From assembly GCA_021890795.1 (NCBI GenBank), contig JAKKUO010000021.1, forward strand, positions 1-33,988: a DNA stretch of 33,988 bases. Direction: 5' to 3'. The notes under the pieces were generated by a model. That model was given only the letters and a program-made list of their open reading frames with translations. It was not told where the DNA came from and made no database searches. This stretch comes from Bacillota bacterium (GTDB lineage Bacteria > Bacillota > Sulfobacillia > Symbiobacteriales > ZC4RG38). The position numbers and the translations under genes were made by a program. Position 1 is the first letter of the stretch; every line of letters starts with the position of its first letter. Below are positions 100 to 31,403 of this stretch, piece by piece.

Positions 100-452
100 C
101 ACAACCGTGGGCTGCCTTGTACAAAGGGCGACGGCTGCGTTGTACAAAGGGCAACGGCTGTGAAGCGGAGGAGTATCCTGGCTACCGCTCCCAGAGAGGC
201 CGGGCCGCAGGGTGGAAGCCTGGCTGGGCAAGGGGCCGGAGAAGGTCGCCGCGGAGCCGCCGGTCCGAAGGCTCCCGGGGGAGCCGGAGGGCTGGCCGGG
301 GTCGGCCCGTTACAGCCGGAAGAGCGCCTGTCCCGGGGACGGACCGGAGGCCGCAGGGCCTGCCGGCTGCTGCGATCCCCGGAGCGGGAATGAAGGTGGT
401 ACCGCGGGCCCTGGCCCGTCCTTCACGGACGGTCTGGGGCCTGTTCGCTTTT
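100..452 (+). promoter_or_regulatory. T-box leader (tRNA-Val sensing) of valS
   Basis: The untranslated leader of valS carries the hallmarks of a T-box riboswitch. Stem I begins near 160 with a GGAGTA-type element at 167-175 and an AGAGAGGC segment at 193-200, followed by GGTGGAAGCC. The specifier candidate is GTC (Val) at 245-247, within GAAGGTCGCCGCGGAGC. The T-box proper, AATGAAGGTGGTACCGCGG, spans 389-407; its TGGT can pair with an ACCA tRNA end, as expected for tRNA-Val with an A discriminator. A competing terminator hairpin (CCGTCC, loop TTCA, GGACGG, inside a longer GGCCC/GGGCC stem) spans about 407-440 and is followed by TTCGCTTTT. Uncharged tRNA-Val should favour read-through into valS. 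The class is certain from the T-box sequence; the exact specifier is inferred from spacing and context. Confidence 0.9.
117..160 (+). repeat. Two tandem 21-nt repeats with TTGTACAA core
   Basis: Bases 117-137 and 140-160 are the same 21-mer with one mismatch (GGGCGACGGCTG against GGGCAACGGCTG). Each copy starts with the perfect 8-bp palindrome TTGTACAA. They lie between the predicted transcription start and Stem I of the T-box. Function is unknown; they could be a protein site or an added hairpin in the nascent RNA. Confidence 0.8.
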
Positions 453-496
453 GGGCCCGAGGCGGGAGCGTTAGCGTCAAGGAGGGGTTGTGCGCG

Positions 497-3316
497 ATGT
501 CGGAGACCACCCTTGCCCCGGGCCGGAGCACCGGCGCCGGCCCGGAGCTGCCCAGCCGCTACGACCACAAAGAGGTGGAGGACCCCATCTACCAGTTCTG
601 GCTGGCGGGGGACTACTTCCGGGCGCCGATCGTCGAGGGGCGGCAGCCCTTCACCATCGTGATCCCGCCGCCCAACGTCACCGGGGCGCTGCACATGGGC
701 CACGCCCTGGACAACACGCTCCAGGACATCCTCATCCGGTGGCACCGGATGCAGGGGGATCCCACCCTCTGGGTCCCCGGCACCGACCACGCCGGCCTGG
801 CGACCCAGATCAAGGTGGAGGAGGTCCTGAAGAAGGAGGAGGGCCTCACCCGGTACGACCTGGGGCGGGAGAAGTTTGTCGAGCGGGTCTGGCAGTGGAA
901 GGCCAAGTACGGCGACACCATCAAGAAGCAGCTGCAGAAGCTCGGCTGCTCCTGCGACTGGAGCCGGGAGCGCTTCACCATGGACGAGGGGCTCTCCCGG
1001 GCGGTGCGGGCCTTTTTTGTCCGGCTCTACGAGAAGGGGCTCATCTACCGCGGCGAGCGGATGATCTCCTGGTGCCCGACGGACCGGACGGCCCTCTCGG
1101 ACATCGAGGTGGAGCGGGAGGAGGAAGAGGGCAAGCTCTACTACTTCCGCTACCCGCTGGAGGACGGCTCGGGCTTCATTGAGGTGGCCACCACCCGGCC
1201 GGAGACCATGCTCGGGGACACCGCGGTGATGGTCCACCCCGAGGACGAGCGGTACAAGCACCTCATTGGCAAGCGGGTCCGGCACCCGGCCACCGGGCGG
1301 CTCATCCCTATCATCGCCGACGAGGCGGTGGACCCGGCCTTCGGCACCGGCGCGGTGAAGGTGACGCCTGCCCACGACCCGACGGACTTTGAGGTGGGCC
1401 GCCGGCACAACCTGGAGTTCATCCAGGTGATCGGCTGGCAGGGGGAGATGACCGAGGCCGCGGGCAAGTACGCCGGCCTGGACCGGTACGAGTGCCGGAA
1501 GCGCATCGTGGAGGACATGGAGGCCCAGGGGTACCTGGTGAAGGTGGAGGACCACCGCCTCGCCCTCGGCCGGTGCCAGCGGTGCGGGACGGTGGTGGAG
1601 CCCCTTGTCTCCCAGCAGTGGTTCGTCCGGATGAAGCCCTTGGCGGAGCCGGCCATCGCGGCGGTCCGGGACGGCCGGATCCAGATCGTGCCGGAGCGGT
1701 TCACCAAGGTCTACCTGCACTGGCTGGAGAACATCCAGGACTGGTGCATCAGCCGGCAGATCTACTGGGGCCACCGGATCCCGGTCTGGTACTGCCAGGA
1801 CTGCGGCGGCCAGACGGTGGCGATGGAGGATCCCACCCACTGCCAGCACTGCGGTTCGGCCCGGATTGAGCAGGATCCCGACTGCCTGGACACCTGGTTC
1901 TCCTCGGCCCTGTGGCCCTTCAGCACCCTGGGCTGGCCCGATGACACCCCGGACTTCCGGTACTTCTACCCGACCACGGTGCTGGTCACCGGCTACGACA
2001 TCCTGTTCTTCTGGGTGGCCCGGATGATCTTCAGCGCCCTGGAGCTCACGGGCGAGATCCCCTTCCGGACGGTGCTGCTCCACGGCCTGGTCCGGGACTC
2101 CCAGGGCCGGAAGATGTCCAAGAGCCTCGGGAACGGCATCGACCCCCTGGAGGTCATCGACAAGTACGGGGCCGACGCCCTCCGGTTCATGCTGGTTACC
2201 GGCAACACCCCGGGCAACGACCAGCGGTTCTACTGGGAGCGGGTGGAGGCGGGCCGGAACTTCGCCAACAAGCTCTGGAACGCGAGCCGCTTCGTGCTCA
2301 TGAACCTTCAGGACTTCGACCCCGGGGCCATCGGCGACTTCGCCCGGGCCCTTCAGGAGCACGGGGCGCCGGAAGACCGGTGGATCGTCTCCCGGCTCCA
2401 GGCGGTGGCCGGCCAGGTCCAGCAGAACCTGGAGCGGTGGGAGCTGGGGCTGGCCGCGACGGCGCTCTACGACTTCATCTGGGACGAGTTCTGCGACTGG
2501 TATATCGAGATGGTCAAGCCCCGGCTCTACGGCAAGGTGGAGGCGGGGCTCCCCGGCGGCGGCCCCGAGGGCCGGCGGCTGGCCCAGCACACCCTCTGGT
2601 ACGTGCTGGACAGCATCCTGCACCTCCTGCACCCCTTCATGCCCTTCGTCACCGAGGCGATCTGGCAGCGGCTGCCGCGCCTGGGCGGCGACCGGTCGGC
2701 CACCGCGGCCATGGTCCCGGACCCGGACCGGTACGTGGCGTGGCGCCGGGCCCGGGAGGCCGGGGCGCCCCCGGCCCTGGTGGCGGATCCCTGGCCGCAG
2801 CCCAATCCTGCCCTCCGCTTTGCGGAGGATGAGGCCCGGGTCGCCCTCTGGCGGGATGTGATCAAGGCAGTCCGGAACATCCGGGCGGAGATGGGGGTGC
2901 CCGCGGGCAAGAAGGCCGAGGTGGTGCTGCAGGCCGCTACCCCCGAGGTGGCGGAGACCCTCCGGGCCGGCACGGTCCACATCCTCGCCCTGGCCCAGGC
3001 CAGCGCGGTCCGGATCGAGCCGGTCTCCCCGGCCAAGCCCGAGCAGGCCGCGGCGGCGGTGGTCACCGGTGTCGAGGTCTACGTGCCGCTCAAGGGCCTG
3101 ATCGACGTGGAGAAGGAGATCGCCCGGCTGACCAAAGAGCGGGACGAGATCGCCCGGGAACTCGAGCGGACCCGGGCCAAGCTCGCCAACCCGAACTTCA
3201 TCACCCGGGCGGCGCCGGCGGCGGTGGAGAAGGAGCGGGCGAAGGAGGCGGAGTTCGTCCAGAAGCTCTCCGCCCTGGACGCCCGGCTGGCGATGCTGCA
3301 GCGGGCCCGGCAATAG
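497..3316 (+). CDS. valS: Valine--tRNA ligase
   Basis: This class I aminoacyl-tRNA synthetase charges tRNA-Val with valine in the cytoplasm and edits mischarged threonine. The ATG at 497 is chosen because AAGGAGGGG at 479-487 lies 9 nt upstream; the frame is open further upstream, but that part is the T-box leader. The 939-residue product matches usual ValS size. The ATP-binding HIGH motif appears as HMGH at residues 66-69, after PPPNVTG. The editing (CP1) domain shows TTRPETM near 232, and KMSKS is at 539-543. An anticodon-binding helical domain follows. The last ~70 residues form a charged coiled coil beginning [11 protein letters not shown] and including LANPNF, the ValS-specific tRNA-binding arm. 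Regulation by the T-box leader fits the identity. Confidence 0.98.
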
Positions 3317-3376: not shown

Positions 3377-3406
3377 GATGGGTCCCGGGTTTCCCCGGGA
3401 CCCATC
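3377..3406 (+). terminator. Perfect 13-bp hairpin between valS and the MFS gene
   Basis: GATGGGTCCCGGG at 3377-3389 is exactly complementary to 3394-3406, with the 4-nt loop TTTC. It may end or stabilise the valS transcript. No U-tract follows; only four bases separate it from the ribosome site of the next gene, so it could also affect translation of that gene. Confidence 0.6.
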
Positions 3407-3422
3407 TTCAGGAGGTGTAGGC

Positions 3423-4850
3423 ATGTCCGCGGCAGAACGGTCCCGGAAGTGGCTGGTGCTGGCGGTGGTCGGGGTGGGCACCTTCATGTCCGCCCTGGAC
3501 GGGAGCATCGTCAACATCAGCATCCCACAGATCCAGGCCGAGTACGGGGTCACCATCGGCACCGTGGGCTGGGTCTCCACCGCGTACCTCCTGACCATCA
3601 GCGGCCTGCTCCTCACCTTCGGCCGGCTCGGGGACATGGTGGGGTACAAGCCGGTCTACAACCTGGGCTACATCATCTTTGGCCTGGCCTCCTGGCTCTG
3701 CGGCGTGGCCCCCGGCTTTCCCGCCCTGGTGGGGGCCCGGGTGCTGCAGGGGGTGGGGGCGGCGATGCTGATGGCTATCGGCCCGGCCCTCACCACCACC
3801 AGCGTCCCGCCCCAGGAGCGGGGCCGGGCCCTGGGGATGGTGGCCGCGGCCACCTACCTGGGCCTCACCGTGGGCCCCAGCCTGGGGGGCTACATCACCG
3901 ACCTCTGGGGCTGGCACTGGGTCTTCTGGATCAACGTCCCCGTGGCCGCCCTGGGAGCGGTCCTGGCCGCGGCGGTGCTGCCCCGGGGAGAGACCCGGGG
4001 CGGGCAGCGGTTTGACCTGGTGGGGGCCGGCCTTTTCGCCCTGGGGCTGGTGAGCCTGCTCCTGGCCCTCAGCCGGGTGGAGGAGGTCGGGTGGGCGAGC
4101 CCGGAGCAGGCCGGGCTCTTTGCCCTGGCCGTCGGGGCGCTGGCGGCCTTTGTCTGGCAGGAAGCCCGGGCGCCCCAGCCGGTGGTGCCCCTGGGGATCT
4201 TCCGCAACCGGCTGTTTGCATCGAGCTTCACCGCCGCGTATTTGCAGTACGTGGTCAACTTCATGCTGGTCTTCCTCCTGCCTTTCTACCTCCTGCGCTT
4301 CCGGGGCTTTGCTCCCCGGGTGGCAGGGCTCATCCTCACCGCCCAGCCCCTGACCATGGCCCTTACCTCGCCCCTGGCCGGGGCTCTGGCCGACCGCCTC
4401 GGGACCCGGGGCCTCTCGGTGGCGGGGATGCTGGTAATGGCCGGCGGGATCGGCCTGATGGGCTGGATCCCGGAGGCGGCGCCCCTCTGGCGGATCGTCG
4501 CTCCCCTGGTGCTGGTGGGCCTCGGGGCAGGGCTCTTCACCACCCCCAACAACAGCGCCATCATGGGGTCGGTCTCCCGGGAGCGGCAGGGGATCGCGGC
4601 GGGGCTTCTGGCCACGGCCCGGAACGTGGGGATGGTGACGGGGGTGGCCCTGGCCGGCGCCCTCTTCGCCGCCCTGCAGGCCCGGGAACTGGCCGCGGGC
4701 CGGGGGGAGCCGGAGGCGTTCCTCGCTGCCTTCCGGGAGACCGAGCGGGTGGCGGCGGCCCTGGCAATCCTGGCGGCCCTGGCGGCCGCGGTGCGGGCGG
4801 AGGACCGGGAGTCGGCGCTCCCGGCCGGGGAGACGGCTCCGGGGCGCTAG
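3423..4850 (+). CDS. MFS drug/proton exporter, DHA2 (EmrB/QacA) type
   Basis: An inner-membrane transporter of the major facilitator superfamily, probably exporting a drug or small organic molecule by proton antiport; the substrate cannot be told. The ATG at 3423 follows GGAGGTG at 3411-3417. The 475-residue protein is almost entirely hydrophobic, with room for 14 membrane helices as in DHA2 members. Visible family motifs are the N-terminal SALDGSIVNISIPQIQ (motif D1), GRLGDMVGYKPVY (motif A loop after helix 2), RVLQGVGAAMLMA (motif B) and GPSLGGYITDLWGWHWVFWINVP, the last containing the antiporter motif C. It sits between valS and folC, which are often adjacent in Clostridia-like genomes, so it may be an insertion into an older pair. 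Base composition is like its neighbours. Confidence 0.93.
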   Translation: MSAAERSRKWLVLAVVGVGTFMSALDGSIVNISIPQIQAEYGVTIGTVGWVSTAYLLTISGLLLTFGRLGDMVGYKPVYNLGYIIFGLASWLCGVAPGFPALVGARVLQGVGAAMLMAIGPALTTTSVPPQERGRALGMVAAATYLGLTVGPSLGGYITDLWGWHWVFWINVPVAALGAVLAAAVLPRGETRGGQRFDLVGAGLFALGLVSLLLALSRVEEVGWASPEQAGLFALAVGALAAFVWQEARAPQPVVPLGIFRNRLFASSFTAAYLQYVVNFMLVFLLPFYLLRFRGFAPRVAGLILTAQPLTMALTSPLAGALADRLGTRGLSVAGMLVMAGGIGLMGWIPEAAPLWRIVAPLVLVGLGAGLFTTPNNSAIMGSVSRERQGIAAGLLATARNVGMVTGVALAGALFAALQARELAAGRGEPEAFLAAFRETERVAAALAILAALAAAVRAEDRESALPAGETAPGR

Positions 4851-4878
4851 GGGGAGCCGCGAAAGGAGACGATCGCCC

Positions 4879-6150
4879 ATCGAGTACCTGGATGCCCTGC
4901 GCTGGCTGCAATCCCTTCTCCGCTTCGGCATGAAACCCGGCCTGGAGCGGACCCGGGAGCTCCTGCGCCGCCTGGGGGACCCCCACCGGGCGGGGTACCG
5001 GGTGGTCCACATCGGCGGCACCAACGGCAAGGGCTCCACCGCCGCGATGGTGGCAGCGGGACTCCGGGCCGCCGGCTACCGGGTGGGGCTTTACACCTCC
5101 CCGGCCCTCGAAAGGTGGAACGAGCGGATCCAGGTGGATGGCCGGCCCATCGCCGACGGGGAGGTGGCGGGCCTGGTGGCCCAGGTCCGGCCGGCGGTCG
5201 AGGCGATGGCCCGGGAGGGGCACGAGCAGCCCACGGAGTTTGAGGTGACCACCGCCCTGGCCTTCCTCCACTTTGCCCGGCAGCAGGTGGACTGGCTGGT
5301 GCTGGAGGTGGGGCTCGGCGGTCGGTACGACGCCACCAACGTGGTGGAGCGGCCGGCGGTCACCTGCATCACCAACGTGGAGCTGGACCACACGGAGGTC
5401 CTCGGGCCCACCCACCGGGCCATCGCCTGGGACAAGGCCGGCATCCTCAAGCCCGGGGTGCCCTGCGTCACCGGGGCGACCCACCCGGAGGCCCTGGCGG
5501 TGCTCCGGGCTGAGGCCCGGCGGGTGGGGGCGCCTCTCCTGGAGGTCACGCCGCCCCCCGGGCCCGTGGCTGCGGACTTCACGGGCCAGGTGGCCGACCT
5601 CCCCGGGCTGCCCGGCGCCCGGATCCGGCTCCTGGGCCGGCATCAGCTGGCCAACGCCGCCTGCGCGGCCCGGATTCTCCAGGTGCTGGGGTTGCCCGAG
5701 GCGCCGATCCGCCGGGGCCTCGAGGAGGCCCGGTGGCCGGGCCGGCTGGAGGTGGTGCCCGGCGACCCGCCGGTGCTGCTGGACGTGGCCCACAACCCCG
5801 CGGGCGCCGCTGCCCTGGCCCAGGCGGTCCGGGACTACCTCCCGGGCCGGCCGGTGGTGCTGGTCCTGGGCCTGCTGGCGGACAAGAGCGTAGACGGCTT
5901 CCTCGATCCCCTTCTGCCCCTGGCCCGGCAGGTGGTGGCGGTCACCCCGGCGCACCCCACCCGGGCCCTGCCGGCCCGGGACCTGGCCGCGGCCCTGGCC
6001 CGCCGGGGGCGGACGGCGGAGGTCGCCCCATCCCCCGGGGAAGCCCTCCGCCGGGCCCGGGCTCTCTGCCCCGCGGGCGGGGCGATCCTGGTGGCCGGGT
6101 CCCACTACCTGGTGGGTCCGGTGCGGTCTCTGCTGGTTCCGGTTGAATAA
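4879..6150 (+). CDS. folC: Bifunctional folylpolyglutamate/dihydrofolate synthase, probable ATC start
   Basis: FolC adds glutamate to folates (and usually makes dihydrofolate from dihydropteroate) with ATP. The P-loop GTNGKGST lies near residues 45-52, followed by the family's TSPALERWNERI, VGLGGRYDATNVV, DHTEVLGPTH and DVAHNPAGA. The first in-frame ATG is at 4930, but the 17 codons before it encode IEYLDALRWLQSLLRFG, which matches the normal FolC N-terminus (compare the -LKFGVKPGL- of B. subtilis FolC), and 4930 has no ribosome site. AAAGGAG at 4862-4868 sits 10 nt before an ATC at 4879. No in-frame ATG, GTG or TTG lies between the upstream stop-free region and 4930, so ATC at 4879 is the best start, giving 423 residues, near the family norm of ~430. 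If only standard starts are allowed, the gene is 4930-6150. Confidence 0.93.
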   Translation: MEYLDALRWLQSLLRFGMKPGLERTRELLRRLGDPHRAGYRVVHIGGTNGKGSTAAMVAAGLRAAGYRVGLYTSPALERWNERIQVDGRPIADGEVAGLVAQVRPAVEAMAREGHEQPTEFEVTTALAFLHFARQQVDWLVLEVGLGGRYDATNVVERPAVTCITNVELDHTEVLGPTHRAIAWDKAGILKPGVPCVTGATHPEALAVLRAEARRVGAPLLEVTPPPGPVAADFTGQVADLPGLPGARIRLLGRHQLANAACAARILQVLGLPEAPIRRGLEEARWPGRLEVVPGDPPVLLDVAHNPAGAAALAQAVRDYLPGRPVVLVLGLLADKSVDGFLDPLLPLARQVVAVTPAHPTRALPARDLAAALARRGRTAEVAPSPGEALRRARALCPAGGAILVAGSHYLVGPVRSLLVPVE

Positions 6151-30815: not shown

Positions 30816-31403
30816 ATGCGGGAACCGGAGGGAACCCCTCATCCGGAGGGCGCCTCCATCCCTGTGGAGGAGGTTCTGGCCTACCTGCGGGGCGGTCAGG
30901 ACGCCCTGTACGAGGTGGTCCGGACCTACGGCCGGACCCTGAGCCCGGAGGAACACTGGTGGCTGGGGGTCTGCCTGGCCGCCACGGTGCTGGCGGAGCT
31001 GAGCGAGGTCTCCCACGTCGTCCGGCAAGTGGGGCTGCTCTCGGAGCGTATCGGCACCCGGGGGGCGACCCCGGAGGTGGTCGAGGAGCTGATCGCGGAG
31101 CTGGCCAAGATCGACAGCCTTGGGCTGCTCTGGCCGGTCTACGAGCGGGACCAGGGCCAGTGGCGCCGCGCCGAGGTGGCCATCGCCCCGGACTTCGGCC
31201 CTGAGGCGGCTTACTGGCTGGCGGTGGCCCACCTGGGGGCCGCCCTGCTGGTCCGGGAGGGCCGGAGCGGGGAGATCCCGGACCTGGCGGCGACCATCGG
31301 CGACCTGGTCACCGGCGGCCTGCGCCCGGAGCACCGGGAACGGATCCTCGCGGTTTTCCGGAAGAGCGGCGGGGCCGGGGGCGGGTCCGGAGCGCTGGAG
31401 TAG
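30816..31403 (+). CDS. Hypothetical helical protein
   Basis: A 195-residue protein I do not recognise. It looks soluble, mostly alpha-helical and rich in Glu, Leu and Val, with one moderately hydrophobic stretch (WWLGVCLAATVLAELSEV, ~50-67) that could be a buried helix. A single cysteine lies in it. The last 15 residues are Gly/Ser-rich. It has a good ribosome site, AAAGGAG plus GAGGAG before the ATG at 30816, and follows the M23 gene by 100 bases, so co-transcription is possible. It converges with the dehydrogenase gene, leaving only one base between the two stops. No function is offered. Confidence 0.75.
   Translation: MREPEGTPHPEGASIPVEEVLAYLRGGQDALYEVVRTYGRTLSPEEHWWLGVCLAATVLAELSEVSHVVRQVGLLSERIGTRGATPEVVEELIAELAKIDSLGLLWPVYERDQGQWRRAEVAIAPDFGPEAAYWLAVAHLGAALLVREGRSGEIPDLAATIGDLVTGGLRPEHRERILAVFRKSGGAGGGSGALE

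Follow-up and report, generated by a model that had tools for sequence, protein, structure and literature searches.

Where translation of folC begins is the question raised by the window, the 33,988-nucleotide stretch of DNA analysed here, which comes from a draft genome (G000; 2,788,697 bases in 103 contigs) of a heat-loving bacterial group. The gene (positions 4879–6150, forward strand; 423 residues plus the stop codon at 6148–6150) is annotated as bifunctional dihydrofolate/folylpolyglutamate synthase, and a standard ORF call starts it at the first in-frame ATG (4930–4932). The first-pass annotation had proposed that folC probably starts on an ATC at 4879–4881, and our analysis supports this proposal through the frame, the spacing of the Shine–Dalgarno sequence, the match in length to relatives and the presence of ATC in a second genome. 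Judged from sequence, translation of folC from the ATC at 4879 is the reading that we favour, with a probability of roughly 0.85.

The folC frame is limited upstream by an in-frame TGA at 4636–4638, 81 codons 5′ of the ATC, and the 80 codons between the two contain no ATG, GTG or TTG. Reading the frame onwards also bears out the earlier statement that no such codon occurs between the ATC and the ATG at 4930, 17 codons downstream. When CTG, ATC, ATT, ATA, ACG, AAG and AGG are counted as near-ATG codons, the 44 codons 5′ of the ATC hold three AGG codons only. The Shine–Dalgarno sequence AAAGGAG (4862–4868) was said to be correctly spaced for the ATC, and the measured distance is 10 bases (scored as AAGGAG with a spacing of 10); a CTG at 4888, downstream of the ATC, is 19 bases from it. 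The ATC lies 28 bases 3′ of the stop of the upstream ORF.

By sequence the protein is an ordinary member of its family: it scores 389.8 bits against the NCBIfam model TIGR01499, above the curated cut-off of 162.65, with an alignment that starts at residue 22 and takes in model positions 1–399 of 400, and the Mur_ligase_M and Mur_ligase_C domains are both matched. The ATC start is what sets it apart from the FolC/FPGS-DHFS family described by this model. A protein search of the window genome found only one FolC, the second match being weak and to a frame with a Mur ligase domain. With phmmer, the alignment to Thermotoga maritima FolC (1o5z) begins at residue 2, and that to Lactobacillus casei FPGS (1fgs) pairs residue 3 of the query with residue 3 of the chain, so that chain residue 1, counted back, would fall on the ATC. 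These alignments agree with the first-pass annotation, in which homology to FolC was held to reach 17 codons 5′ of the first ATG. Conservation is lower in these 17 codons than in the remainder of the gene (seven of 17 residues are identical between the window and the second genome described below, compared with 267 of 404 elsewhere), but despite this they retain the FolC pattern of the relatives.

The second genome (G002) is complete and belongs to another genus of the same family. Its folC locus (L010) has an ATC at the same aligned codon as the window, and as it is the sole other genome of the family with the region, conservation of the codon is seen in two genomes (n = 2); G001, from the same genus as the window, yielded only the C-terminal part of folC and the 5′ half was not found. 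At L010 the gene directly upstream is valS, identified by its Pfam domains, and the junction reads TAGGGGGGGAGCACCCC-ATC-ACG-TAC; 14 bases separate the valS stop from the ATC, and a start at this codon would give the FolC N-terminus (M)TYEEAIAYIHGLYR. A Shine–Dalgarno sequence thus precedes the ATC in both genomes, AAGGAG at 10 bases in the window and GGAG at six bases in L010, at different placements, and the run of G bases containing the latter starts inside the valS stop codon. The nearest upstream in-frame canonical codon in L010 is a GTG 160 codons away, within valS, and there is one ACG nine codons upstream of the ATC.

The FolC proteins of the two genomes share 65% identity, and the genes differ at 110 of 203 fourfold-degenerate sites; at this distance a read error is very unlikely. 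ATC is a single base away from ATG, and ATG is what was read at the folC start in the other genomes of the order, both of which could suggest that an ATG at 4879 was misread or misassembled; yet the same ATC stands in a complete, independently sequenced genome of another genus, and two independent errors in two diverged genomes are not credible. We give this explanation almost no weight, and the ATC is probably real rather than misread. The first-pass annotation had taken relatives with ATG or GTG at this position as the sign of such an error: outside the family the codon is indeed mostly ATG, GTG or TTG, but L010 has ATC. The identity of the two codons proves little by itself, because ATC is also an isoleucine codon favoured by high GC content. 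Most simply, ATG changed to ATC a single time, before the family's two genera diverged, and the ATC was then retained; that the third-position C was kept across this single split could be chance.

The genes preceding folC differ between the two genomes. In the window, an ORF for valS (212–3316, forward strand; tRNA-synt_1, Anticodon_1 and Val_tRNA-synt_C domains; the ORF as listed probably extends too far 5′), 75% identical to its orthologue in G002, is followed by an ORF for an MFS transporter (3378–4850, forward strand, start approximate; MFS_1, 202.1 bits), which lies between valS and folC. The MFS gene is absent from this junction in L010, which indicates an insertion or a loss there. The ATC is therefore shared although the upstream neighbour is not. 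This arrangement bears on the possibility that ribosomes reach folC through a frameshift or after starting far upstream, the ATC then being an internal isoleucine codon. The frame would allow it, as it is open for 80 codons upstream of the ATC in the window and for about 660 in L010, but the genes that would supply the start are different (MFS in one, valS in the other), the DNA 5′ of the ATC is unrelated (three to four matches per 10 bases, ungapped) and the protein alignment starts just two residues before the ATC. We regard such an entry as highly improbable.

For a wider view of the start we used 108 relatives, made up of 28 loci from one search and the best 80 of 84 from another. In the first search 58 of 61 genomes had matches, amounting to 30 loci; two of these were excluded, namely L009, the locus of the window, and L032, where only the C-terminal half is present. 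L058 and L059 probably duplicate L011 and L014. Among these 108 relatives (including the best 80 of 84), there are 74 in which the aligned codon itself is ATG, GTG or TTG, a further 32 have a canonical start within 15 codons, and two, L010 with its ATC and L109, have none at or near it; ATC was absent from the aligned codon in the 107 relatives other than L010. L109 (positions 4960–5060) is folC from a Kiritimatiellae metagenome-assembled genome, and the lack of a canonical start around the place where one is expected may reflect a rare start or an assembly error.

Translation might instead begin at the ATG of 4930 and leave the upstream 17 codons untranslated. This ATG is the one picked by standard ORF calls, it is present in the window and in L010, and the segment that would be lost is the less conserved part of the protein. 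It sits, however, within the motif FGMKPGL, and by eye no Shine–Dalgarno-like sequence was seen in the 25 bases preceding it in either genome. A start there would also drop the N-terminal segment that aligns with the solved FolC structures, and it is at odds with 106 of the 108 relatives (including the best 80 of 84), in which a canonical start stands at the upstream position or no more than 15 codons from it. We consider this start very unlikely; with the ATG disfavoured by homology and by the missing Shine–Dalgarno sequence, neither genome has a usable canonical start.

A start at the ATC of folC has a counterpart in infC. In the order to which the window belongs, infC (L138–L145) starts on ATC in seven of eight genomes and on ATT in the eighth, preceded by AGGAGGTGT or GGGAGGTGT, so that ribosomes of these genomes can be expected to initiate on AUC. 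PMC5472188 likewise gives ATC as the start of infC in Streptomyces. Both infC and folC have a non-canonical ATN start behind a Shine–Dalgarno sequence, and ATC starts both in the same genomes; the Shine–Dalgarno sequence of folC is the weaker, with six and four bases compared with seven and eight for infC.

Whether ATC is peculiar to folC was examined by comparing 1.08 Mb of the window genome (39% of it) with 1.60 Mb of G002 (44%). The first screens (115 pairs and then 383) were noisy owing to shadow frames and to alignments starting in the middle of genes; with shadow frames removed, 383 reciprocal-best pairs were retained. A canonical start with a Shine–Dalgarno sequence of at least four bases was found at the same column in both genomes in 124 pairs and the start codon was identical in 74 of these, which shows that start codons turn over at the distance between the two genomes. 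The strict screen of the 383 pairs looked near the start of homology for Shine–Dalgarno-preceded positions that have, in both genomes, no canonical codon six codons or fewer away. It returned 55 positions, three of which have ATC in both genomes: folC, infC and a selD-like gene. The last is an artefact, as its alignment starts after an in-frame UGA, taken as selenocysteine, that precedes GCKIGPADL. With infC as a fair positive control, the strict screen recovers the known case together with folC. All of these screens cover less than half of each genome and pass over genes in which an in-frame canonical codon happens to lie close to the start.

Other settings were used on the same pairs. When a canonical, Shine–Dalgarno-preceded start of one genome served as the anchor, 12 rows lacked a canonical codon in the partner genome; one of these rows has CTG and none has ATC. 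A relaxed screen gave 23 shared near-ATG rows, where only folC and infC were judged start-like by eye; a further ATC row (C6:14122) is preceded by a Shine–Dalgarno sequence in just one of the genomes and falls within a long frame. The one-sided list of the relaxed screen has six rows, including a CTG in addB of the window genome and an ATC in a LigT-like gene of G002, but the LigT-like gene was rejected since it has ATGs 11 and 16 codons upstream. Two further candidates were also set aside: a pheS-like gene has a GTG directly before its ATC, and a window ORF at 30816 begins with ATG. A loose filter applied to 288 pair sides per genome left 30 and 31 without a canonical codon from −25 to +5, many of which have one a few codons later. 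The non-canonical candidates elsewhere in the two genomes indicate that folC need not be a special case.

If folC starts on the ATC, the AUC at 4879 would be read by fMet-tRNA, guided by the Shine–Dalgarno sequence AAAGGAG, with the initiator tRNA pairing with the first two bases of the codon. No special initiator tRNA was seen among the 22 and 36 tRNAs of the sampled stretches, in which the methionine and isoleucine tRNAs have CAU and GAU anticodons. AUC is a weak start, for which reason synthesis of FolC should be low. IF3 rejects starts other than AUG, GUG and UUG, and by comparison with infC and Streptomyces sigR the level of FolC would presumably depend on IF3; folC would be translated weakly, in step with infC. 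The product of FolC feeds the formyl-folate used to formylate the initiator tRNA. The frame, the Shine–Dalgarno sequence, the lack of other starts and the shared ATC can be read from the sequence itself; from these we infer that ribosomes probably start at the ATC, that the yield may be low, that IF3 may set this yield and that the cell may make use of it.

The models for such control come from other genes. According to PMC5472188, infC regulates itself through its non-canonical start and IF3, and the GTC start of sigR in Streptomyces, a case outside infC, is repressed by IF3; an in vitro survey (PMC10158994) reports that weak pairs at the third base are disfavoured by IF3. As described in PMC5472188, sigR is a gene other than infC whose rare start is kept within a single lineage, with canonical starts in use elsewhere, and in this it resembles folC. 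It differs in that its codon is GTC, and in that the start responds to IF3 and has been proven by stop-codon mutants and N-terminal sequencing, while the ATC start of folC is supported by sequence. infC acts on itself through IF3, whereas folC is the gene of a folate enzyme, so that any control by IF3 would have to act across genes. The ATC start of infC in the same genomes adds to the comparison between folC and IF3-controlled genes, but this is only an analogy. Escherichia coli pcnB is reported to start on AUU, as shown by experiment. Like folC, it is a housekeeping gene, and it is thought to be held low by its weak start codon, although codon and gene are different and the start of pcnB is an experimental one.

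A regulatory use of IF3 at the AUC of folC is possible by this analogy, but we hold it to be doubtful. The fuller proposal, that an infC-type AUC start places folC under IF3 and that FolC would follow the stringency of initiation and so link the supply of folate to the start of translation, appears distinctly unlikely. The predicted mRNA folds leave the start codon paired in the window (unpaired probability 0.05) and open in L010 (0.83), and with accessibility differing in this way there is no shared mRNA structure to back regulation; the start region of the window folds less well than shuffled sequences (z = 2.14). No folate riboswitch with a score near the gathering score was found in the window or in L010, and a scan for promoters and terminators between 4600 and 6300 of the window gave none.

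The AUC could equally be used without any regulation, a weak start being acceptable either where the demand for FolC is small or where ribosomes coming from valS or the MFS gene reinitiate nearby, so that the choice of codon is relaxed. This alternative places the start at the same codon as our preferred reading and differs on function only, and it is on function that we judge it: a serious possibility, which we rate at somewhat below even odds. It fits the sequence as well as regulation by IF3 does, the gaps to the upstream stop are short (14 bases in L010 and 28 in the window), and the CTG start candidates in these genomes, of which addB is the clearest, suggest a general tolerance. On the other hand, folC and infC are the only shared Shine–Dalgarno-preceded ATC starts in the sample, which covers less than half of each genome, and this looks selective.

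Very few bacterial genes besides infC have been shown to use a start codon outside the set of ATG, GTG and TTG, and such starts escape gene finders by design, as argued in PMC5472188. Non-canonical starts are nevertheless a known kind of gene feature, with infC and sigR as clear precedents. To our knowledge, a conserved ATC start of folC has not been described in the open-licence literature, where searches for an ATC or AUC start (initiation) codon returned mostly mitochondrial genomes and, by title, no folC. A shared ATC start in a gene of folate synthesis would add a case far from E. coli and Streptomyces, in a lineage that has a cultured relative, and a simple orthologue screen is seen to recover infC and folC together.

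The comparison of the two genomes also gave several observations on other genes. The clearest other non-canonical candidate is addB of the window genome (L152:6142; G000:C32:126142), where a CTG lies six bases behind GGAGGTGA; there is an in-frame stop three codons before the CTG, the first canonical codon is 47 codons on and the match to the ADDB_N domain begins at residue 5. In the G002 orthologue the corresponding codon is TTG. A histidine kinase gene of the window genome (L229:7292–9244, minus strand; G000:C103) has a CTG behind AAGGAGG, aligned with the start of homology at LFRTIQRK; a canonical codon follows only after nine codons, and G002 has an ATG three codons before. In uvrA of G002 (L252:7725–10598, minus strand) there is no ATG, GTG or TTG from 25 codons before to 26 codons after the start of homology, and a CTG following GAGGGGGG stands directly before it. 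The selD-like gene (L207:11251–12246, minus strand; G000:C32) and its counterpart in G002 have AIRS domains and an in-frame UGA directly before GCKIGPADL, and the presence of this UGA in both genomes suggests that the product is probably a selenoprotein.
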